This document shows positions 9,902 to 28,759 of a DNA stretch of 64,000 nucleotides, in pieces. This DNA comes from an uncultured Chlorobiaceae bacterium (GTDB taxonomy: Bacteria; Bacteroidota; Chlorobiia; Chlorobiales; Chlorobiaceae): contig CAIMCD010000008.1 in the NCBI GenBank assembly GCA_903839405.1, positions 1-64,000 of the forward strand. Direction: 5' to 3'. The notes under the pieces are model-generated. The model did not search any database and was not told the origin of the DNA. It saw nothing but the letters and a program-made list of their open reading frames with translations. The position numbers and the translations under genes were made by a program. The first letter of the stretch is position 1; each line of letters opens with the position of its first letter.

Positions 9902-9992
9902 GGAGAGGTCGCATAGTTGGTCTAGTGCGCTCGCCTGGAAAGCGGGTAGGGTGTTACAGCCCTCGAGGGTTCGAATCCCTCCCTCTCCGCCA
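9902..9992 (+). tRNA. tRNA-Ser (anticodon GGA), CCA encoded
   Basis: GGAGAGG/CCTCTCC acceptor, loop CTGGAAA, long variable arm, GGTTCGAAT T-loop. Confidence 0.95.
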
Positions 9993-10145
9993 GGGAATGT
10001 TGATGAATAAAGTCAGTCAGCACGCTTTATTGTCAGAGAGTGCAGAGTGTTGCAGAAAGAAGCAAAAAATTCCCTTGACGCTTTTTTTTCTGGTATTATC
10101 CCAAGCGATTGACTATCTTTGCAACCTGTTCTTTACAACGGAATT

Positions 10146-10228
10146 GGAGGATTTGCCTAATTGGGAAGGCAGCAGTCTTGAAAACTGCCGGGTTCACGCC
10201 CATGGGGGTTCGAGTCCCTCATCCTCCG
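10146..10228 (+). tRNA. tRNA-Ser (anticodon TGA)
   Basis: GGAGGAT/ATCCTCC acceptor, GCAGT-CTTGAAA-ACTGC anticodon arm. Confidence 0.92.
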
Positions 10229-10239
10229 CGCTACATTTT

Positions 10240-10329
10240 GGAGAGGTGGCCGAGCGGCTGAAGGCACCGGTTTGCTAAACCGACGTAGTTCTTATAGGGC
10301 TACCGAGGGTTCGAATCCCTCCCTCTCCG
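10240..10329 (+). tRNA. tRNA-Ser (anticodon GCT)
   Basis: GGAGAGG/CCTCTCC acceptor, CGGTTTGCTAAACCG anticodon arm, long variable arm. Confidence 0.95.
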
Positions 10330-10335
10330 CACAAC

Positions 10336-13487: not shown

Positions 13488-14822
13488 GTGCTGAGGTTGC
13501 TATTTGTTTTTCTTACTTTTATTATTGCCGGATGCTCCCAGCATGCTGCTGAAAACAGTGGTGATCGTGTGGCAGCCGTTGTCAATGGCGTGGAAATTAC
13601 CCAGCGTGAAGTCGATGCTTTTTATAAGCAAGCCGCTTCCCCCGGAGCCAGTGAATCAACAAGGCGCGCTCAACGCCGGATGATTCTGGCCAAAATGGTA
13701 CAAGCTGAACTTCTCGCTCAGGAGGGAGCAAAGATGAAGCTGGACAAATCGCAGGAGTTTCTCATAACCGTTCACGAGGCACGTCGCCGGGTGCTTGCAG
13801 GATTGGCAGAAAAAGAGATTTTCTCAACAGCCAAGCCGGTTTCACCGGCAACGTTCCAAAAAATGTTTGCGGACAACCCTATGGTGTTTGCAGCCAGAAA
13901 ACTTTTCGTTTACGAAGAGGTTCTCTTTTCCGGTGTCAATGTGTCGCTCCTGCAGTCACTGGATGGTAAAATTGGTAAAGGATCATCGTTGAAAGAGTTG
14001 CTTGATGAGATTACCTTGAGGGGAATACCATTTCGGCGCACCATAAAGACGGCTACGACAGATCAGATAGAGCCCGCTATTCTCAAAGTGTTGAGCAACG
14101 CAACCCCAAAGGTACCGGCTGTTGTGCAGATGTCAGACAAGTATTCCATGATTCTGATGCTGCATATGATTTTACCGGCTCCGCTGGAAGGTCAGGCAGC
14201 AGTAAATCAGGTTAATGCCCGGCAACGAAACCTGGCATTTGAACAAAAAATGAAGGATTTGGTTGATGCCTCTAAAATCACCTACCTCGGTGAATTTAAG
14301 CCTGGCGCTCAGCTCAAGCCGGATGGGGTTACCCTGCCAACGGGTGATCCTGCACGTCTGGCAGCCAAACGTCTTCGGCATATTCTCTTCGCGGGATCAC
14401 TCGCCATCTCTTTTGTGGCTGCAATGTTGCTGTTATCGGTTTCAATGTCGATTCTTAAAGGAACGCTCTGGCTTCCTCAATTCTGGCCGGTTCGCAAAAA
14501 GGATATCCCTTCAAATCAACCAGGCTTTCAATATGAGGTTTATAGAGCGAAGCCTCTCGTTAAACTGATTCTTTTCCTTGTTGCACTCCTGAGTGTTTCT
14601 GTTCTTGGTTATCATGTTTCCCTGCTTTGGGATATTATCTCCTTTTGGATGATCGCGGCGGCTATCATAGGCGGTATCCTTGTCGGTGCGGTAGGGAGCC
14701 GGCTGTTTACCCTGCCATTTTTACGGCGCTTGATTCAAACGTTCCGCTGGGTACCGGTTGCAGTTTTTATCTTGCTTTTGGTGATAGAGCTGCTTGAAAC
14801 AATACGAATTATCAACACATGA
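13488..14822 (+). CDS. EpsD-like (SurA/parvulin N-domain) lipoprotein fused to a C-terminal multi-TM domain
   Basis: ORF opens at 13314; GTG at 13488 gives lipoprotein signal VLRLLFVFLTFIIAGCSQ, SurA-like VAAVVNGVEITQREVDAFYKQA, then about five hydrophobic segments; overlaps the exosortase start (ATGA). Confidence 0.65.
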   Translation: MLRLLFVFLTFIIAGCSQHAAENSGDRVAAVVNGVEITQREVDAFYKQAASPGASESTRRAQRRMILAKMVQAELLAQEGAKMKLDKSQEFLITVHEARRRVLAGLAEKEIFSTAKPVSPATFQKMFADNPMVFAARKLFVYEEVLFSGVNVSLLQSLDGKIGKGSSLKELLDEITLRGIPFRRTIKTATTDQIEPAILKVLSNATPKVPAVVQMSDKYSMILMLHMILPAPLEGQAAVNQVNARQRNLAFEQKMKDLVDASKITYLGEFKPGAQLKPDGVTLPTGDPARLAAKRLRHILFAGSLAISFVAAMLLLSVSMSILKGTLWLPQFWPVRKKDIPSNQPGFQYEVYRAKPLVKLILFLVALLSVSVLGYHVSLLWDIISFWMIAAAIIGGILVGAVGSRLFTLPFLRRLIQTFRWVPVAVFILLLVIELLETIRIINT

Positions 14823-15694
14823 GCATTCGGTTCCACGCATCCTGGTTTCCCTGGCTTCTGTTTGTTGTGATTGCTTTGCAGTCAGCGGCTCGCTATACCT
14901 TGCTTGATCCCTTATTTGGAGATAATGACAGGCCGCTCTTGTATGTAATTTTTGCTGTCGTATTATGGAAAGAACGAAGCAGCATTGCAGCCTCCCTGCG
15001 TGGCATGGGAACAGGCTCCCTTGGCTTTGGTTCACTGTTCTTTATTGTCGGGCTGGTTTTTTATATCGCAGGTCACCTCTACCCGGTCATGCTGCTGGAG
15101 TTCTTGGGGCTGTTTTTCATTGCTGCTGGATTGGTTGCAACTCTTGCTCCTCCCGAGTATCAATCATCCGCCTTTTTAATCGTGCTTTCTGGAACCGTTA
15201 TTGTCGTTATCGGCAGGATGGCTCCTATACTGTTATCATCCGATCTCGCGGTGTTTATTGCGGCTCTGTCGGCAAAAATTGTGAATCAAGCTTTTTTTCC
15301 TGTTATCGCTGATGGCGTACATCTCTACTTTGGCCCATACGGTGCTGAGGTTACCGAGGCCTGTTCAGGTATGCGCTCGATTTTTTCTCTGACAGCCCTA
15401 TCCCTCATTTATCTGCGTCTGGATGCCAAACGAAAGCCATGGCATATTCTGGTATTAGTTGCCTGCATTCTGCCTGTTGCTGTATTGACCAACTTGTCGC
15501 GGGTGATATTGCTTGTGCTTGCAACATGGTATATCGGTGACGGCTTTGCCCAGGGGCTTTTCCATGAAACGGCTGGACTTGTTTTGTTTGTTATGGCGCT
15601 TGCCATCCTTGCCCTGATCGATTATCTCTTAAGCTTTGCCTCTTCATTCCTCAAGCAAACCGGAAAAACTGTTCATGCACATAACCAGGTATAG
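14819..15694 (+). CDS. Exosortase (EpsH/Xrt family)
   Basis: Polytopic membrane protein with EACSGMRSIFSL (Cys), NLSRVILLVL (Arg) and LFHETAGLVLF (His), the exosortase catalytic triad context. Confidence 0.92.
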   Translation: MSIRFHASWFPWLLFVVIALQSAARYTLLDPLFGDNDRPLLYVIFAVVLWKERSSIAASLRGMGTGSLGFGSLFFIVGLVFYIAGHLYPVMLLEFLGLFFIAAGLVATLAPPEYQSSAFLIVLSGTVIVVIGRMAPILLSSDLAVFIAALSAKIVNQAFFPVIADGVHLYFGPYGAEVTEACSGMRSIFSLTALSLIYLRLDAKRKPWHILVLVACILPVAVLTNLSRVILLVLATWYIGDGFAQGLFHETAGLVLFVMALAILALIDYLLSFASSFLKQTGKTVHAHNQV

Positions 15695-16364
15695 CGCTCT
15701 GTCCATAACAGCAGGGCTCTTGCTCCTTTTTTCATTGCTTTTGGTCGAATCAAGAGAGAATCTGACCTTTAAGAAAGCTCAGCCAGATCTGCAAAAGGTC
15801 ATTCGCGAACATCCCGATGGTTGGGTGTTTGTGCCCAGTATTCTGCTTGACCCGCAAACGCACAAAACACTGAAAAGTTATTATGATCTTGTTGTTGCAC
15901 AGGCTTATCAGCGTGTTGATGAAAAAGCAGTGGTGATGATGGTGATGACCTGGAGCGCTAACGGTGACCGTCGTGCAGCTCATCAGCAGGAAGGCTGCTA
16001 TCGAGCCAGCGGATGTACGGTCAGTACGCCGAATTACGTTACGGTTACGACGAAAGTGGGAAACCAAAAGGTTGTTGCCTTTACCGCCCGCCGTGGTATC
16101 CGGGATGTTGAAGATGTTATGTACTGGAAGATATCAGGAGGAATAGCTGACAATGACACGACAACTGATAAAAATAAGTTGCTTAGGCTCATGCGTTTGG
16201 TAAAGCGTGTTCCGGGAGATATACCCGATAATGTGATGGTCAGGGTGTCAACTGTTCGCTCGACACCCAATCAGCCTGCAACGGCCCATATTGAATATAT
16301 CAGGGAATTTCTTGAGACTCTTCCGGCCAGTGACCGAAAACTGGTTATGGGTTCTCAGGATTAA
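15675..16364 (+). CDS. Exosortase-associated EpsI-like protein
   Basis: Single N-terminal TM, HQQEGCYRASGC motif; overlaps the exosortase 3' end by 20 nt. Confidence 0.8.
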   Translation: MHITRYSALSITAGLLLLFSLLLVESRENLTFKKAQPDLQKVIREHPDGWVFVPSILLDPQTHKTLKSYYDLVVAQAYQRVDEKAVVMMVMTWSANGDRRAAHQQEGCYRASGCTVSTPNYVTVTTKVGNQKVVAFTARRGIRDVEDVMYWKISGGIADNDTTTDKNKLLRLMRLVKRVPGDIPDNVMVRVSTVRSTPNQPATAHIEYIREFLETLPASDRKLVMGSQD

Positions 16365-16716
16365 GCGTGCATGCAAAATGGATCGTTTGCCGCATTTGAT
16401 CATCTTGGCTGATTGTTTTTCATCCGGATTGATTTTTAATAGTGCTGACAACTTGCAGGGTGGCATGTGGGGGATAGTTTGATCAGCCATGAGAAAGAGT
16501 GCCTTATTCTATAACTGGTTTCTAAATAGGTAGTTAAGATGCGATTTTTCGTATATATAACCGATATTTATCCGTTCAGAATTTTGCGGATCAAGGTATA
16601 AATAAATACGAGATTGTTGTGTCAATCAGGATTTTTTTGCATTTTCTTAAAAGAGATTATCTATATTTAATCAGTGGGTTAACGAAACATCAAAACACAA
16701 AAAGGAGCTAAAAAGT

Positions 16717-17370
16717 ATGAATAAGAAATTGCTAACTTTTTTGGCGACAGGGTCGCTAATGCTTTCGATGGGAAGTGCTGCGAGTGCGTCGATCATCTAT
16801 CTAAATAATCCTGGTTTCGAGTCCGGCGATTTCACCGGATGGAATGTCAATATCCCTGATGCCAATTATGGCTATGCACTGGTGGTGCCGAACGATATAG
16901 CGTACTGGACGCCAGACGCCAGCGTTACGAGTGTTATCAATCCATACAGTGGCAGCTATACTGCCGATCTTTACGGTACAACCAATATCTCTCAAAATAT
17001 CTCCTGGAATGCCGGGGATCGACTGATATTCGCCTATGATTTTAAGTCCAACAATGTTGGGCCGATTAATGATTACGGGTATTTTCAGGTGTTGGGTGCA
17101 GGCAATACCGTTCTTTACAACCAGGTGCTTGGTTCCACTACCTCAGTTGGTGGAGGACTTGAGAGCACAGGTTGGACATATGTTGACTATGCCTTTACCA
17201 CATCAGGATCAGGTGCTGTGAACTTTGGTGTACAGAGCCTTAATGATCCGACCGTTGGTTTATCTCAGCTTTATGTTGATTCACCAACCCCCGAACCAGC
17301 ATCCATGCTTCTCTTGGGTACCGGCCTGGCAGGTTTGGCAGGAAAGAGACTCAGAAGGAAGAAAAAGTAA
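16717..17370 (+). CDS. PEP-CTERM sorting-domain secreted protein
   Basis: Signal peptide plus C-terminal PTPEPASMLLLGTGLAGLAGKRLRRKKK; RBS AAGGAG. Confidence 0.95.
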   Translation: MNKKLLTFLATGSLMLSMGSAASASIIYLNNPGFESGDFTGWNVNIPDANYGYALVVPNDIAYWTPDASVTSVINPYSGSYTADLYGTTNISQNISWNAGDRLIFAYDFKSNNVGPINDYGYFQVLGAGNTVLYNQVLGSTTSVGGGLESTGWTYVDYAFTTSGSGAVNFGVQSLNDPTVGLSQLYVDSPTPEPASMLLLGTGLAGLAGKRLRRKKK

Positions 17371-18780: not shown

Positions 18781-20253
18781 ATGAACAGAAAACCGCTTCT
18801 CTTTATCGCTCTCTGGATGCTCTCTTTTTATCCGGTTCATGCCGATGCATCGGCGAAAGCCTCAAGCCCCTACAGTGCCACGAAGTCCTATTATGGTAAA
18901 CTGATTTCCGCGGCCAAGCCAGATGTTGCCAAGTTACGGCTTTTCTTTACCCTTATGCCCAAAGGGGGAGATATTCATCAACACTTTACCGGATCACTGT
19001 ATGCGGAGAATTATCTCGATTGGGTCGATAAGTCGGGATATTGGATCAGCAAAAATGATTTTTCGGTTATCACTCCGAAAGATACTGACAAGTTAAAAGA
19101 CACGGTTTCGGTTAAAAACCTGAGAAGCAACAAGGTGATGCAGGGTGATTTTTTCACGCACTGGTCGGACAAGGATTTTGCAAACCATTATCACGATGAG
19201 ACGGCGCCGGATGTACAGTTTTTCGGTACCTTTTCCTATTTCTCGAAAATTTTTAACGGCAACCAGAACTATTACGCCGACGGTATTCGGGTGCTGAAAA
19301 CCCGGGCTCAAAATGAACATGTTCAGTACCTCGAAACCATGTTTGTCTCTCCCGGTTATCAGAAGGCTGATCCGCAGTTTGATGCACTTGTCCGCAAAGC
19401 CGATATCACTCTTGATAACAAAGCTTTTCGGGCTATTTTGGACAGCTTTTTGCTTGGCGTCAAGCAAGACAGCTTGTTCTACAGCAAGGTCAACCAGTAT
19501 TGTGATCTTGTGGAGCTTTGCAGCAAAGGAGTTGATGATGAGGGATTTACGATGCGCTTCCAAAGCTATGTCTCACGGAATACCACTCCCTCCCAGTTCT
19601 TCTCCGGCCTCTATACCGCCTTTTATGAAGCGGATAAAAACGCCCGTGTTGTTGGCGTGAACATTGTCAGTTCGGAGAATGATGCCATTGCCCTTTCGGA
19701 TTACCGGCTGCACATGCAGATGTTCCGGTATTTGAAGGAACAATATCCACGAATCAAAACCTCCATGCATGCCGGAGAGTTGACGACGGGCATGGTGTTG
19801 CCGGAAGATCTGAAATACCATATTTCCGAAGCCATCGCTGTTGCCGGAGCCAACCGGATTGGCCATGGGGTTGATATTGCTTACGAAACCGATGCCCTCG
19901 CTACACTGAATCGGATGAAGGTTCAGCAGATTCCCGTTGAGATCAACCTGACCAGTAATGAGTTTATCCTTGGTGTCAAGGATGAAGCGCACCCCGTAAG
20001 GCTCTACACCGATTATGGTGTGCCGGTTGTTATCTCTTCGGATGATCCCGGCGTTTCAAGGGGTAGTTTGAGTGAGGAGTATGTGCTGCTCGCCAGCCGG
20101 TACCGATACTCCTATGACGAGGTAAAACAATTTGCCGCAAACAGCATCAAGTACTCCTTTATGAGCGAAAGTGACAAAGAGCGCCATTTGCAGCTCTTGC
20201 GCAAAAATTTTGATGCATTTGAACGCAGGATTATGATCCTGGCCAACAAGTGA
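18781..20253 (+). CDS. Exported adenosine deaminase-family protein
   Basis: Signal peptide; MPKGGDIHQHFTGSL (HxH-type metal site), TSMHAGEL, ISSDDPGVSRGSLSEEY. Confidence 0.85.
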   Translation: MNRKPLLFIALWMLSFYPVHADASAKASSPYSATKSYYGKLISAAKPDVAKLRLFFTLMPKGGDIHQHFTGSLYAENYLDWVDKSGYWISKNDFSVITPKDTDKLKDTVSVKNLRSNKVMQGDFFTHWSDKDFANHYHDETAPDVQFFGTFSYFSKIFNGNQNYYADGIRVLKTRAQNEHVQYLETMFVSPGYQKADPQFDALVRKADITLDNKAFRAILDSFLLGVKQDSLFYSKVNQYCDLVELCSKGVDDEGFTMRFQSYVSRNTTPSQFFSGLYTAFYEADKNARVVGVNIVSSENDAIALSDYRLHMQMFRYLKEQYPRIKTSMHAGELTTGMVLPEDLKYHISEAIAVAGANRIGHGVDIAYETDALATLNRMKVQQIPVEINLTSNEFILGVKDEAHPVRLYTDYGVPVVISSDDPGVSRGSLSEEYVLLASRYRYSYDEVKQFAANSIKYSFMSESDKERHLQLLRKNFDAFERRIMILANK

Positions 20254-20710: not shown

Positions 20711-21718
20711 ATGGCGTTATGGAATGCAATCACAGGGCAATTACGATCAGTCATTGAATGGAAAAATCCTGCACCGGATCTTCTTTTTCAACGATGGACG
20801 GATAATGGCGATGAAATCAAAAACGCGTCGAAGCTTATTGTCGGGCCTGGCCAAGGTGCGATTTTTGTGTATGAGGGAAGACCGCAAGCGGTTATTACCG
20901 AGTCCGGTATGACAGACTTGAAGACACAAAATATCCCGTTCTGGACGACGATCACCAAATTCATGCAGGCTTTCAGGAGTGAGCATAAGGTTGGGATCTA
21001 TTTTTTTCGCACGGCTGAGATTCTGAACCAGGGTTGGGGTACGCCGGGTCCGATAAAATATATCGATCCGCACTACAAGTTTCCTGTTGGCATGAAGGGG
21101 TTTGGCAATTTCTCCTTCCGTATTTCAGATGCAGCCAGTTTCTTCATTAATGTTATGGGTCAGCGGGATGTGCTTACTGTTGATGAACTCCGTCTTGTCA
21201 TTGTTGCAAGGCTTGTCCAGCCCCTTACGGATTTTCTTGCTGAAGCCAGGTTCGGATATAATGAGATTGATGCCAACAGGAATGAAATTGCTGATGGAGT
21301 GAGGGAAAAGGTAGCTCCGATATTTCTGACCCTCGGCTTCGAGCTTAAGGACTTCCGTGTTGAAAATACGGATTTTGATGATGATACGAGGCATCGCGTG
21401 CAGCGTATTGCGGATATGCAGGCAGAGGCACAAGCGGCACAGGCTGTCGGCTTGAATTTCGCTCAAATTCAGCAGTTAGCTGCTCTCAGAGATGCGGCCC
21501 AGAACCAGGGTGGAGTGGCTGGTCTGGGAGTTGGCCTTGGTGCAGGCGTGGGAATGGGTCAGGCAATGGCCGGTATGATGACCAACATGAATGCACCGCA
21601 ACCGGCACCGGAAGATCCTGTGGCCAAACTTGCCAAATTGAAACAGATGCTTGATAACGACCTCATTACCCAACAAGAGTACGATGCGAAAAAGCAGCAG
21701 ATTCTTTCGCAACTCTAA
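20711..21718 (+). CDS. SPFH-domain (virion core-like) protein with C-terminal SHOCT domain
   Basis: LRSVIEWKNPAPDLLFQRW...LIVGPGQGAIFVYEG...; C-terminus DPVAKLAKLKQMLDNDLITQQEYDAKKQQILSQL (SHOCT). Confidence 0.8.
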   Translation: MALWNAITGQLRSVIEWKNPAPDLLFQRWTDNGDEIKNASKLIVGPGQGAIFVYEGRPQAVITESGMTDLKTQNIPFWTTITKFMQAFRSEHKVGIYFFRTAEILNQGWGTPGPIKYIDPHYKFPVGMKGFGNFSFRISDAASFFINVMGQRDVLTVDELRLVIVARLVQPLTDFLAEARFGYNEIDANRNEIADGVREKVAPIFLTLGFELKDFRVENTDFDDDTRHRVQRIADMQAEAQAAQAVGLNFAQIQQLAALRDAAQNQGGVAGLGVGLGAGVGMGQAMAGMMTNMNAPQPAPEDPVAKLAKLKQMLDNDLITQQEYDAKKQQILSQL

Positions 21719-21768
21719 TCGATATCATGCGTTTCGCATTTGAAGAACGTAACGATCAGGAGTCACCC

Positions 21769-23658
21769 ATGCGATCCAGCAGCTTTTTGAAGTTCCTTTT
21801 TCTTTTCGCCCTGACCGCTCTTGGAGTCCCTTTCATCGGTGCGGAGCTTCTTGCGCGGGCCGGAGGCGGCGGAGGCCATGGAGGCGGAAGTCATGGAGGG
21901 GGAAGTCATGGAGGGGGGCATAGCGGGGGTGGATTCTCTGGTGGTGGACACTCCTCAGGTGGGGGATTTTCTGGATATGATACCTCCTCTGGTGGATCCG
22001 GTTTTACTGGTTTTCCCCCATTCATTACAGCCATCATTCTTCTGGTGATTCTCTTCTCTGTATTCCGGCTTATTTTATTTATTCATGAAGCTTCGATTAC
22101 AACCTACTCCAGTATGGCTCGGCATAAAAAAAACTCTTTTGAAAAAGTCGCTGGAGCCAAGGCTTTTTTTGCAACGAATCCCGACTTTGATCAATCCGGG
22201 TTCCTGCTGAAAGTCCGCAAAGCCTTCATCGAAGTACAATTCGCCTGGTCAGAGCAAAATACCAGTCGCATGCGCCGTTTCATTACGGATGGGGTTTATC
22301 AGCGATTTAATACCCAGTTCCGGATGATGAAGCTGCTTCAGCAGACCAACCCGATAAGCAATATCAATATTGCAGATATCTGGGTCGACAGGATTGAGCG
22401 GGACGGTCAGTATGAGATCATGCATGTTGGAATCCAGGCCAGTATGGATGACCGGTTTGAGTGTGCGCTGAACCATGAGCTGGACGAGGAGGGCTTTGAC
22501 GACTTTGTTGAGTTCTGGTCGTTTATTCGTAAGCGGGGAGGAGCGAAAAAAGATCTTTATGATTCAATCAAATGTCCGAATTGCGGCGCACCCTTGCCGG
22601 AGAATATGGGTGAAGTTTGTAAATGTACCTATTGTAATGCAACGCTCAATTCCGGGGAGTTCGACTGGGTTCTTTCCGAAATCACCCAGAAGGACGACTA
22701 CCACAGAGACGATCTCTTTTCAGAAAAGAGTGGCAATCTGGAAGCAAAGGTACGTGATATGGTATCGGTCTATGGAGATTTTTCCGTACAACTGGTTGAG
22801 GACAAGGCTTCAAATGCATACATGCAGATGATGACCGCAGAGGCCATGCATGATCCTTCGCTTATGCGCAGGTTTGTCTCGGATGAATTATTCCAGACTC
22901 TCGCCCCAAAGTATGAAAGGAATCAGGAGATTTTCAACCGTCTCTTTCTGAACAAGGTGACGCTCATCGGGGCTGAGAAAAAGGATAATAAAAATCTCCT
23001 CATGTTCTCGATTCTCTGTTCGCTCCAGAGAGTGGCGGTTACAAACAACAGAGTGGAGCTGCTCGACCCGGAAATGATGACAAAGGAAGAGGTGATGTTT
23101 CTGACCCGTGATGCCCAGGCCGGGGCCGGAAAGGGTTCAATCTATCAGCATAATTGCCCGGCTTGTGGTGGGCCTGTCAAGAACACGCTTGATCTCAAAT
23201 GTTCCTACTGCGGAAGCCTGCTCAACAGCACCGCGAATGACTGGGTTGTCAGCGCACTGATGAGCCGTAGAGAGTTTGCTGACTATTATGGTGCGAATAA
23301 GGGCGGTTTCACTGCCAAGGTAGATCCTGCTTTGCTGGATAAACTCTATAGTCTGAAAGATTATGCTCTCAACAATATCATGATTGTTGTCGCGGCTGAT
23401 GGAGCGCTTGATGACAAGGAGAGAGCTTTTCTTGTTGAAGTTGCAAATAAGTGGGGATTCAAGAGCGCCGATATCGAACCGCTCTTCAAGATGGCCGCAA
23501 GCGGGAGGCTTTCAATCAGAATGCCTGAAGATCAAGAGATGCGAAAGAGTGTTTACAATCTGATGGAGAAAGCCGCAACTGCCGACGAAAACATTACCCC
23601 GCAGGAGCAGGGTATTTTGAATTGGGTGAAAGAGACATATCTCGACAAAAAAACCTGA
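21769..23658 (+). CDS. Internally duplicated Tim44-like / zinc-ribbon / TerB-like protein with Gly/His-rich N-terminal segment
   Basis: SP/TM, GGGGGHGGGSHGGGSHGGGHSGGG, two MRRF(I/V)xD Tim44-like regions each followed by CPxCG...CxYC zinc ribbon, C-terminal IVVAADGALDDKERAFLVEVANKWGF (TerB-like); AGGAG RBS before ATG 21769. Confidence 0.75.
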   Translation: MRSSSFLKFLFLFALTALGVPFIGAELLARAGGGGGHGGGSHGGGSHGGGHSGGGFSGGGHSSGGGFSGYDTSSGGSGFTGFPPFITAIILLVILFSVFRLILFIHEASITTYSSMARHKKNSFEKVAGAKAFFATNPDFDQSGFLLKVRKAFIEVQFAWSEQNTSRMRRFITDGVYQRFNTQFRMMKLLQQTNPISNINIADIWVDRIERDGQYEIMHVGIQASMDDRFECALNHELDEEGFDDFVEFWSFIRKRGGAKKDLYDSIKCPNCGAPLPENMGEVCKCTYCNATLNSGEFDWVLSEITQKDDYHRDDLFSEKSGNLEAKVRDMVSVYGDFSVQLVEDKASNAYMQMMTAEAMHDPSLMRRFVSDELFQTLAPKYERNQEIFNRLFLNKVTLIGAEKKDNKNLLMFSILCSLQRVAVTNNRVELLDPEMMTKEEVMFLTRDAQAGAGKGSIYQHNCPACGGPVKNTLDLKCSYCGSLLNSTANDWVVSALMSRREFADYYGANKGGFTAKVDPALLDKLYSLKDYALNNIMIVVAADGALDDKERAFLVEVANKWGFKSADIEPLFKMAASGRLSIRMPEDQEMRKSVYNLMEKAATADENITPQEQGILNWVKETYLDKKT

Positions 23659-23921
23659 ATCAGTTTCAAGGAGCTGGTTGAAGAAATCTATAATATTTCA
23701 TGATTGCTCTTTTTATTCTCTTTGTCAGACAGCTCCATTTTTGACTGTTGGGTTTGATGAACTGCTCGATATTGATGATAACGGCTTGAAGCTGCCATGG
23801 GGAAGCATATTTACTTGTTTAGCAATGTTTAGCAGTTTGCTTTCGAATTTTATGTTGACATTCGTGGGTTATTGTTTATTATTGCCATAATGTCAAAATA
23901 TTTCCCATGGAGGCGAGTGTC

Positions 23922-25199
23922 ATGAATACTACCCAGAGCTTTTCGTTGTTGCGCCAGCAGGCGGGTTTGTCCATTGACAAAATTGCTCATATTACCGGAT
24001 ATAGCCAGAGAGAGGTATATCGTTGGGAGAAAAACGAGGTGGTTCCCAAAAAAGTAGTACTTGACCAGCTCACAAGGATTGCCCAGCCGTTGTCATCCTA
24101 TGGGAAAGCTTTCTCAAGCTTTACCTTCATTGATCTTTTTGCCGGTATTGGAGGCATGAGAAAAGCTTTTGAGGAACTTGGCGGAAGGTGTGTCTTTACA
24201 AGCGAATGGGATAAATATTCCCGTCAAACATATCTGGCAAATTTTGAGTGTGATCACGAGATTGGCGGTGACATTACCAAAATTGATGCACGGGATATTC
24301 CGTCACATGATATTCTTGTTGCGGGTTTTCCCTGCCAACCTTTTTCAATTGCTGGAGTTTCCAAAAAAAATGCTCTTGGCAAACCTCACGGTTTTGCGGA
24401 CAAAACCCAGGGTACCCTGTTTTTTGATGTGGCAAGAATTATTGAGTACCATCGCCCGAAAGCGATCCTGCTTGAAAATGTCAAGAATCTTCAGCGGCAT
24501 GACAAGGGGAAAACGTTTGGAGTTATCAAGGAGACTCTCGCGGAACTGGGCTATTACTTTGACTGGAAAATTATTGATGCCGGAAACTGGGTTCCCCAAC
24601 ACCGGGAGAGGATATTTATAGCAGGTTTCCGGGAGGATTGCGGATTCAGCTTTGACCGGTTTGATCTGCCAGATGGCAGCCAGCGCCCGGTCATTGAAAC
24701 CATATTGCACACTGAAAACGGAATGGAAAATGAGGAACCCCCTTATACCATCGGCCCGTTGGCAAGAATATCTGATCGCTATACCCTGTCGGATCATCTT
24801 TGGCAGTATCTTCAGCAGTACGCAGAAAAACATCGGGCAAAAGGCAATGGTTTCGGATTTGGCCTTGTCGGTCCTCATGATGTAGCCAGAACACTTTCGG
24901 CACGGTATTACAAGGATGGTTCTGAAATTCTGGTGAAGCAGGAGGGAAAAAATCCCCGCAGACTCACCCCGAGGGAGTGTTCACGATTGATGGGTTTTGA
25001 CGCGCTCAATGGTAACAGTTTTGTGATTCCTGTTTCGGATACCCAGGCTTACCGACAGTTCGGAAATGCAGTAGTTGTGCCTGTCGTCAGGGCAGTAGCC
25101 CGGTATATGCTTGAATACCTTATGGATGGTGTTTCATCTGACCAGTTGCGTTTTGACTTTGGCGTTCTGATGGCTGAAAAAGCTGTTCAGTATGGTTGA
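23922..25199 (+). CDS. DNA (cytosine-5-)-methyltransferase with N-terminal HTH
   Basis: LFAGIGGMRKAFEELG, VAGFPCQPFSIAG, ENVKNL, QFGNAVVVPV; HTH at AGLSIDKIAHITGYSQREVYRWEKNEVVP. Confidence 0.95.
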   Translation: MNTTQSFSLLRQQAGLSIDKIAHITGYSQREVYRWEKNEVVPKKVVLDQLTRIAQPLSSYGKAFSSFTFIDLFAGIGGMRKAFEELGGRCVFTSEWDKYSRQTYLANFECDHEIGGDITKIDARDIPSHDILVAGFPCQPFSIAGVSKKNALGKPHGFADKTQGTLFFDVARIIEYHRPKAILLENVKNLQRHDKGKTFGVIKETLAELGYYFDWKIIDAGNWVPQHRERIFIAGFREDCGFSFDRFDLPDGSQRPVIETILHTENGMENEEPPYTIGPLARISDRYTLSDHLWQYLQQYAEKHRAKGNGFGFGLVGPHDVARTLSARYYKDGSEILVKQEGKNPRRLTPRECSRLMGFDALNGNSFVIPVSDTQAYRQFGNAVVVPVVRAVARYMLEYLMDGVSSDQLRFDFGVLMAEKAVQYG

Positions 25200-25722
25200 T
25201 GTTGTGTCACCGGAAACACGAAGTCGAATGATGTCCGGTATCCGGGCAGTGAATACCATTCCTGAAATGATGATACGCAAAGGCCTTCATACCAGGGGGT
25301 TCAGATTCAGACTCCATTGTAGAGAATTGCCGGGAAAGCCGGATCTTGTTTTTCCGAAGCATCGTGCCGTTATTTTTGTTCATGGATGTTTCTGGCATGC
25401 TCACGAGTGCGCGCTTTTCAAATGGCCGAAAACAAGAGAGGATTTTTGGAAAGAGAAGATTGGTAAAAACAGGATTCGTGACCTTGCGGTTATGGGTGAA
25501 CTTGCACGGCACGGCTGGAGAGTTTTGCTCGTCTGGGAGTGTGCTCTGAAAGGCAAAGAGCGCAGACCGATTGATGAAGTTGTTGATTCCTGTGCAGAAT
25601 GGCTGCTTTCAAGCTCGATAAAACGTGAAATCAGAGGGCAACATGCGACTATCGACACTGCAAATGCTCATGCGAAACAAGGGTTGCCGGACGATCTATG
25701 CGAAGGTACTCGCCGCAAATGA
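25192..25722 (+). CDS. vsr: Very short patch repair endonuclease (Vsr)
   Basis: SPETRSRMMSGIRAVNT, GKPDLVFPKHRAVIFVHGCFWHAHEC. Confidence 0.95.
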   Translation: MVDVVSPETRSRMMSGIRAVNTIPEMMIRKGLHTRGFRFRLHCRELPGKPDLVFPKHRAVIFVHGCFWHAHECALFKWPKTREDFWKEKIGKNRIRDLAVMGELARHGWRVLLVWECALKGKERRPIDEVVDSCAEWLLSSSIKREIRGQHATIDTANAHAKQGLPDDLCEGTRRK

Positions 25723-26962
25723 CAACCGGAAACAGCAGGTCTATTTCGGCGGTGATTTCCAGGCTATCAACATTATTCCCTTTAACACCATAACACCTGA
25801 TCCAGACAAGCCGCATATATTCAAGGCACCACTTGATTTTTGGTGGCTTTCCTGCGATGGCAGCATGCACAATGCACCTCGGGCCCAACTGATACTTTAT
25901 CCCCAATATCCGGAAGTCAGGTTTTCTGGTTTTCTTCAGGGCTGTTCTGCCGCACCGTCAGAACTCATGGATGAGCGTCTGCGACTTGCAGGGCGAATCC
26001 TTTTTCTGGGGATATCTCCTGATGGCAGAATTATCGGTTACCTGTGCCACCCGGACAGTGAACTTGCAAGGGAGTTTGCTTCTCTTGGAGAACTGACCCG
26101 AAGCGGAGTTTTTCTTGAACCCGGTATCGAAACCGGTGCACTGGACGAAAGATCGCAGCTTATCGAGAAACTGAGGCAGATTCATCTGAAGGGCTGGATC
26201 CGCTCAAGAAAACTGGGCAGCAACGGTGTCACATTGCCCTGCGAAGCTTCCAATTGCGGCGGGATGACACTCGAAGCCGAACTTGATATTCCTCCCAACA
26301 GCCGGTCAGAGCCGGACTATCTTGGCTACGAGGTTAAGCAGTACAACGTCAGCAACTTTCAGAGGATCAACAGTGGAGTACTGACTCTCATGACCCCCGA
26401 ACCAACAGGCGGTTACTACCGTAGTGCAGGTATTGAAGCCTTCATTCGCAAATTTGGTTATCCTGACATGACGGGAGCCGCTGGTCGTGGAGACCGGCTG
26501 AATTTCGGAGGTGTACACAAAGTTGGTGAGTATCACTGTTTGACCAACCTCCAGATTGTGCTCAAAGGGTTTGACTCCGTTAAGGGAAAGATCACCGATG
26601 CAACGGGCGGAATATCGCTGATGAACCGTGAAGGTGAAGAGGCTGCGCTTTGGGGATATGCTGACATTATGGCCAAATGGAACCGAAAGCATAACAAGGC
26701 AGTATACATCCCAAGCCAATGCGTTCAGTTACCCGAACGGCAATACTGGTATGGAAATCTGATACGTATTGGTACAGGAACTGATTTTTTGAAGTACCTG
26801 CAGGCCATGGCGGAAGGCAAGATTTATTACGATCCTGGTATCAAACTTGAGAATGCCTCAACCATTCCACGAACCAAACAGCGAAGCCAGTTCCGTATAA
26901 AATCAGCCAATCTTCCTGCACTTTATCACAGCATGGATATTATTGATTTGTGCGATGTATAA
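25643..26962 (+). CDS. MvaI/BcnI-like type II restriction endonuclease
   Basis: Overlaps vsr by 80 bp; PDYLGYEVKQYNV (PD..ExK-type) and LTLMTPEPTGGYY, reminiscent of the MvaI/BcnI family; extra N-terminal region of about 190 aa. Confidence 0.7.
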   Translation: MRLSTLQMLMRNKGCRTIYAKVLAANDNRKQQVYFGGDFQAINIIPFNTITPDPDKPHIFKAPLDFWWLSCDGSMHNAPRAQLILYPQYPEVRFSGFLQGCSAAPSELMDERLRLAGRILFLGISPDGRIIGYLCHPDSELAREFASLGELTRSGVFLEPGIETGALDERSQLIEKLRQIHLKGWIRSRKLGSNGVTLPCEASNCGGMTLEAELDIPPNSRSEPDYLGYEVKQYNVSNFQRINSGVLTLMTPEPTGGYYRSAGIEAFIRKFGYPDMTGAAGRGDRLNFGGVHKVGEYHCLTNLQIVLKGFDSVKGKITDATGGISLMNREGEEAALWGYADIMAKWNRKHNKAVYIPSQCVQLPERQYWYGNLIRIGTGTDFLKYLQAMAEGKIYYDPGIKLENASTIPRTKQRSQFRIKSANLPALYHSMDIIDLCDV

Positions 26963-27956: not shown

Positions 27957-28484
27957 TCAAAGTTTCCCGGCTGAATGGAGTGCCGTATAGATTGTTTTGA
28001 ACGGCAGAAGGAGTGAAAGCGGTGCGTCAAGCATTGGTACGGCCCCATAGCTCTCGTACCACTCTGCAACCCGCGCATTTTTGGCATCGATCAGAAGGGC
28101 GACGCCGCCAACCTGTGATGCAACAAGAAGAGATCGACGACCTGCAGCAAGCAGTAACTGTCCACCCAGCCCCAGACCCTGAACGGATCGATCAACCGCC
28201 AAACGACCAAGCCTGAATACCGGAACCTCATGGCGGGCCAACCCCTTCCTGACAACTTCTGGGGTGGTGTTATAGGCAACAGAGGCCGGTGTCAGGGTGT
28301 AAAAGCCAAGAATCTTTTTGCCGTCACCTTCATTCAGAGCGAGAAAGGTTTTTGCTCCACCTTTTTCATGACTGTTTCGGGCATGGTGCCAGAGGAATTC
28401 GTTAAGGGCTTTATCTCCGCAATCAAAAGCCGCGCGGTCATGGAGTTTAGCTATCGGCTCCTCGTGCCAGGGAGGGAGAGTCAT
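27957..28484 (-). CDS. GNAT toxin, TacT-like
   Basis: RLAVDRSVQGLGLGGQLLLAA acetyl-CoA loop, WYESYGAVP; overlaps upstream antitoxin by 4 bp. Confidence 0.85.
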   Translation of the reverse strand: MTLPPWHEEPIAKLHDRAAFDCGDKALNEFLWHHARNSHEKGGAKTFLALNEGDGKKILGFYTLTPASVAYNTTPEVVRKGLARHEVPVFRLGRLAVDRSVQGLGLGGQLLLAAGRRSLLVASQVGGVALLIDAKNARVAEWYESYGAVPMLDAPLSLLLPFKTIYTALHSAGKL

Positions 28485-28759
28485 GATTGTTTCGGCAAGG
28501 CGAATGCCGCAGCCATAAGTTTTTCGTTGGGTGCAGGCGGCTCTTCCAATAGATTAAGGAGATGGAGGCTGTCGCGCTCTGTCAGCCCGATTTTTTCATT
28601 CTGGCCGATGACCTCCCGTGCCGCTGAAACCGCCGTGCGGGTGACGAACTCGCTGAGATGCGTACACTGCAATGCTGCTGCACGCATCAGCAGCGACTTT
28701 TCCTCTGACGCAATGCGTAGCGAGAGCCGCGCATTACTCTCTACCGGGATTTGTGCCAT
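28481..28759 (-). CDS. DUF1778/RHH antitoxin, TacA-like
   Basis: ARLSLRIASEEKSLLMRAAALQCTHLSEFVTRTAVSAAREVI. Confidence 0.85.
   Translation of the reverse strand: MAQIPVESNARLSLRIASEEKSLLMRAAALQCTHLSEFVTRTAVSAAREVIGQNEKIGLTERDSLHLLNLLEEPPAPNEKLMAAAFALPKQS

Follow-up and report, generated by a model that had tools for sequence, protein, structure and literature searches.

The locus examined here raises the question of whether two neighbouring genes, one encoding an SPFH protein and the other a membrane protein with repeated Tim44-like and zinc-ribbon domains, form a functional unit, and what such a unit might do. The genes lie on the forward strand of a 64,000-nucleotide stretch of DNA from an uncultured Chlorobiaceae bacterium (the window). 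A preliminary description had named two adjacent same-strand open reading frames, proposed that their products form a membrane-scaffold/stress-response complex, and pointed to a restriction module directly downstream. Both frames are present; we refer to them as S and T.

Two adjacent genes and their products

S (20711-21718, + strand) is preceded by the ribosome-binding sequence AGGGG and encodes a soluble SPFH protein of 335 residues. A Pfam profile search matched it to Band_7_1 (PF13421) with an E value of 3.2e-37, and residues 306-332 to SHOCT (PF09851; E 8.6e-8, 32.1 bits compared to a cut-off of 27), confirming the SPFH protein with a SHOCT tail that had been described. Its AlphaFold model (pLDDT 76) matched prohibitin, stomatin, HflKC and flotillin in Foldseek, indicating an SPFH fold. 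Kyte-Doolittle analysis revealed no transmembrane (TM) segment in any of the 40 S homologues examined. Relative to three close relatives, dN/dS was 0.04-0.05 for S and 0.14-0.15 for T, indicative of strong purifying selection on both genes.

T (21769-23658, + strand) encodes a membrane protein of 629 residues. Its reading frame can be extended upstream as far as 21727; the start is nevertheless better placed at 21769, because AGGAG lies 8 bases before this ATG and because the beginning of the signal/TM segment is conserved at this point in relatives. The spacing between S and T is therefore 50 bp rather than 8. In order, T consists of a signal/TM segment, a Gly/His-rich stretch, a TM helix, two units each made of a Tim44-like domain and a zinc ribbon, and a TerB-like domain (AlphaFold model pLDDT 82, pTM 0.77). 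The N-terminal hydrophobic helix (21769-21861; residues 5-31 of the model) is either a signal peptide or a first TM segment and ends in ARA|GG, where, in an alignment of 57 T homologues, R30 and A31 are nearly invariant and G32 and G33 invariant. It is followed by the low-complexity Gly/His-rich segment (21862-22014) and by the main TM helix (22018-22116; residues 84-116 of the model), behind which lie basic residues. Based on the ARA|GG site and these basic residues, the Gly/His-rich stretch is predicted to lie outside the cytoplasm, and the C-terminal part, with the Tim44-like domains and ribbons, inside.

The preliminary description had also claimed a duplicated Tim44-like/zinc-ribbon unit. 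The first Tim44-like copy (22174-22554) matched PF04280 with an E value of 1.3e-13 and 51.7 bits compared to a cut-off of 29.6, and is followed by zinc ribbon 1 (CPNCG...CTYC) and the segment DWVLSEI (22573-22704). The second, divergent copy (22765-23145) is followed by zinc ribbon 2 (CPACG...CSYC) with DWVVSAL (23155-23280). Using the window protein alone, BLASTP aligned residues 136-312 with 333-505 (numbered from 21769; E 8.6e-14), while hhalign profile-profile comparison of the two units returned a probability of 99.7% and an E value of 1.5e-26. The four cysteines of each ribbon (269/272/286/289 and 463/466/478/481) are invariant in 57 of 57 homologues from several phyla, and zinc-ribbon Pfam models matched T weakly (DZR, 0.0044). 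In Foldseek, the T model matched the C-terminal domain of human Tim44 (2cw9) with a probability of 1.00 and a TM score of 0.62 over the target. Judged from the sequence, then, the internal duplication is real, and the searches proposed to find SPFH and Tim44 relatives, by profile and by structure, found both.

The C-terminal end of T (23320-23655) was less clear-cut. Its match to TerB (PF05099; E 1.7e-4) scored 22.3 bits, ~2 bits short of the cut-off of 24.4. The label TerB-like draws support from a match to PDB entry 2ou3, a COG3793 tellurite-resistance protein (E 0.0015). This helical domain is optional in the family. TerB is absent from 12 of 21 Chlorobiaceae T copies (alignment A1). In a tree of the T core, the Chlorobiaceae sequences form one group (100/93) in which copies with and without TerB are interspersed, requiring 3-4 changes in TerB state. 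This pattern is most simply explained by repeated loss, the direction depending on the root. Outside Chlorobi, S adjoins a TerB-less T in 7 of 13 cases compared to 1 of 31 for TerB-bearing T (p 3e-4, across few independent events).

Distribution and linkage of S and T

The named relatives of the source genome belong to Chlorobium/Chlorobaculum. T was found in 25 of 87 Chlorobiaceae genomes, each of which also encodes S, as the same-strand gene immediately before T wherever the contig allows. Only 3 of the 62 T-lacking genomes contain S: two possess a distant S, and the third, whose genome is incomplete, has a close S, downstream of which T was not found. We compared 19 fetched Chlorobiaceae neighbourhoods holding both genes with the window. 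Only S and T were constant across them, flanking genes being common to close relatives only. The pair is found at differing genomic positions, and no third gene accompanies it throughout.

When the T alignment was run against GTDB species genomes, 94 relatives emerged, of which 80 were kept, 60 of them outside Chlorobi (Spirochaetota, Bacteroidota, Myxococcota, Bdellovibrionota and one Betaproteobacterium). S adjoins T at 8 of these 60 loci, in three other phyla, with order and strand as in Chlorobiaceae. The S tails at these loci are SHOCT or SHOCT-like (L129, L175, L177 and L179) or GYF (L168, L182, L183 and L186). At two Bdellovibrionota loci, L177 (position 9722) and L179 (9617), the S stop and the T start overlap by 4 bp, suggesting translational coupling. 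Since the other 52 loci have no adjacent S, adjacency is not obligatory; in genomes with an unlinked T, S often lies beside a YdjG-like gene instead. Separately, several Spirochaetota genomes (e.g. G549, G544, G488 and G465) contain frames of ~900-1000 residues with a T-like Tim44 plus zinc-ribbon stretch (E ~1e-25 to 1e-40), which by sequence are members of a wider family.

Co-occurrence extends beyond adjacency. Using a broad definition of S that includes distant subfamilies, an S-type SPFH protein was encoded in 44 of 48 T-bearing genomes outside Chlorobiaceae; where T is lacking, the share in these phyla was 9-23%. For the other Bacteroidota the respective counts were 24/27 and 27/311 (Fisher p 1.5e-19, ignoring phylogeny), the latter scored at E below 1e-15 in members of the phylum that lack T and lie outside Chlorobiaceae, and for Spirochaetota they were 9/9 and 33/141 (Fisher p 5e-6, likewise ignoring phylogeny). 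Taken together, these findings bear out the expectation that the pair is co-conserved, and S-T is a real and conserved pair whose members are probably linked in function.

Partners of S and related systems

At 30 S loci not chosen for the presence of T, the next same-strand gene downstream encoded a zinc ribbon in 18 cases, compared to ~7% of nearby genes. Some of these partners were ribbon proteins with a TM segment or short ribbon proteins, the latter of which we take to be DUF4178-like, a label that we likewise presume for clusters of the L214, L215 and L219 type. Most had two ribbons and a C-terminal TM segment, and the one tested displayed a faint match to the YPEB domain (E 0.011). These two-ribbon proteins fit the published description of YdjG (PMC11237479), and are YdjG-like in that sense.

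T itself aligned with a profile of the YdjG-like proteins (A5) over one ribbon only, and we therefore rejected T as a YdjG homologue. A YdjG-like protein was absent from the source genome when searched with the A5 profile; within the order, one was found in a single Chlorobiaceae genome, beside its distant S. We also considered whether PspA is encoded elsewhere in the source genome. A search with PF04012 found no match in this genome, which is 95% complete, while controls were positive. None of 87 Chlorobiaceae genomes had a PspA match above the cut-off either, whereas in the order's other families 11 of 12 genomes did.

The closest known system is pspA-ydjGHI of Bacillus subtilis, in which the soluble SPFH protein YdjI and PspA are no longer localised to the membrane when YdjG or YdjH is missing, and in which two-hybrid analysis found YdjI bound by YdjH (TPM), not YdjG (PMC8581546). 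S-T resembles YdjI with YdjG/YdjH in combining a soluble Band-7 protein with a zinc-ribbon membrane protein (PMC8581546, PMC9239133, PMC11237479). T, like YdjG, has a second, NTF2-like-type domain, and the genes are on the same strand in an operon-like arrangement. In contrast to the B. subtilis system, the source genome yielded neither PspA nor a YdjG-like homologue, S ends in SHOCT whereas YdjI ends in a zinc ribbon, and T, which resembles the YdjG-like profile in one ribbon only, bears an N-terminal TM segment and duplicated Tim44-ribbon units. Two further comparisons are instructive. SPFH-NfeD pairs (QmcA-YbbJ, flotillin-NfeD; PMC2636767) likewise place the gene of an SPFH protein in an operon with that of its dedicated membrane partner, and the S model matches their SPFH structures; however, S lacks a TM segment of its own and its partner is not NfeD. 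In polyamine/DUF4178-type clusters (PMC11237479; L214, L215, L219), an S-type SPFH gene lies directly upstream of a zinc-ribbon gene, but the partner and neighbourhood differ from those of S-T. We found no description of a bacterial SPFH/Tim44 pair in the openly accessible papers searched.

Proposed function and alternatives

We read S-T as a PspA-free form of a membrane module already known, the SPFH/zinc-ribbon type, with a partner family that has no name. Its function is assigned by analogy, and T seems to take the place of YdjG. That S and T would form one membrane-bound complex, T anchoring S as a PspA-free envelope scaffold, is a reading to which we assign roughly even chances. Under this model, the N-terminal TM segment(s) would fix T in the inner membrane, the Gly-rich stretch lying on the outer side and both Tim44/zinc-ribbon units, often with TerB, in the cytoplasm. 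Soluble S would oligomerise into an SPFH assembly that T brings to the membrane, a step proposed because YdjG and YdjH do the same for YdjI in B. subtilis. Two points weigh against this model: T lacks a neighbouring S at 52 of the 60 loci outside Chlorobi, and in the B. subtilis two-hybrid tests YdjI was bound by YdjH rather than by YdjG. Given the families involved, the assembly may serve as a scaffold that monitors the envelope or controls the quality of membrane proteins, in which the Tim44-like domains and ribbons are putative lipid- or protein-binding parts, and it would work without PspA. We infer the physical complex, the anchoring, the topology and the stress role; the YdjI/YdjG parallel makes the membrane-scaffold complex proposed at the outset the best inference, its stress component being the more conjectural part.

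With S-T, the SPFH/zinc-ribbon component of the envelope-stress operon known from B. subtilis is seen apart from PspA, and since this core exists in a PspA-free family, the function of the two genes could be tested alone. It also brings to light an unnamed conserved protein family (TM segment, two Tim44-ribbon units, with or without TerB) with members in Spirochaetota, Bacteroidota, Chlorobiota, Bdellovibrionota and Myxococcota, and suggests that soluble SPFH proteins exchange partners as a rule. A more tentative generalisation, which we suspect but consider rather less probable than the complex itself, is that YdjI-type SPFH proteins are general soluble scaffolds with an exchangeable zinc-ribbon membrane partner (YdjG-like, DUF4178-type, other ribbon proteins or T). 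S-T would then be an undescribed, self-sufficient and position-shifting envelope module in a PspA-free family, with TerB shed where T is locked to S.

It is also conceivable, if somewhat unlikely, that T serves as an adaptor in translocation or membrane-protein assembly, recruiting chaperones or nascent proteins at the membrane, with S as a chaperone-like SPFH cap at the same site. Domains of the Tim44-like type interact with membranes and with Hsp70 or ribosome partners, and besides human Tim44 the T model matches many mitoribosomal chain d entries, which we take to be Tim44-like mL45. T resembles TimA and other bacterial Tim44-like proteins (NF033778, PF04280) in having a membrane-anchored Tim44-like domain. 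Its match to the TimA model, however, is weak (E 5e-9; 36 bits, far under the curated cut-off of 200), and T differs in its two Tim44-like domains, two ribbons and frequent TerB, while known TimA has neither zinc ribbons, duplication nor an SPFH partner. Moreover, most Chlorobiaceae lack the pair, which is therefore no core import factor.

That S and T act in separate processes, as members of an accessory gene set whose adjacency in Chlorobiaceae is a single inherited arrangement, we judge to be unlikely. Chlorobiaceae T sequences form one clade, so the 25 cases there count as one origin, and T is mostly unlinked elsewhere. On the other hand, S and T lie side by side in other lineages too, again with S first; the two stay together where every other neighbour changes, and S shows a general association with zinc-ribbon partners.

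That the ribbons and the external segment serve to sense zinc or other metals at the envelope, or to maintain their homeostasis, is quite improbable. Two invariant zinc ribbons, together with the His-rich segment of most Chlorobium T copies, are consistent with such a function, but these ribbons are usually structural, and the histidines are missing in most other phyla, leading us to reject the segment as a conserved metal site.

The type II restriction-modification set downstream (23907-26962, + strand) encodes an HTH protein and a C5 cytosine methylase (Dcm-like), a Vsr mismatch endonuclease and an MvaI/BcnI-family endonuclease. It had been placed directly after T, but begins ~250 bp on, behind its own promoter-like (sigma-70-like) site at 23855 (11/12 match), and it is a unit separate from S-T. 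The hinted link between the two did not hold up: apart from the window, just one relative has the full set beside the pair, Vsr alone lies near it in a second relative, and other neighbours vary. Thus, despite this proximity and the patchy distribution of the pair, we reject as very improbable an anti-phage or restriction-linked defence module, since the best PADLOC match was not significant (E 0.043), phages returned no hits and plasmids a single weak partial one.

Other genes of the window include a GNAT acetyltransferase beside a TacA1-like antitoxin, a probable TacAT-type toxin-antitoxin pair (27957-28759, - strand). On the + strand are an adenosine-deaminase-like protein with an N-terminal signal-like segment, scoring below curated NCBIfam cut-offs (18781-20253), a protein-sorting set of exosortase (EpsH), a DUF3485 protein and a PEP-CTERM protein (14819-17370), and three tRNA-Ser genes (gga, tga, gct) in a row (9902-10330).
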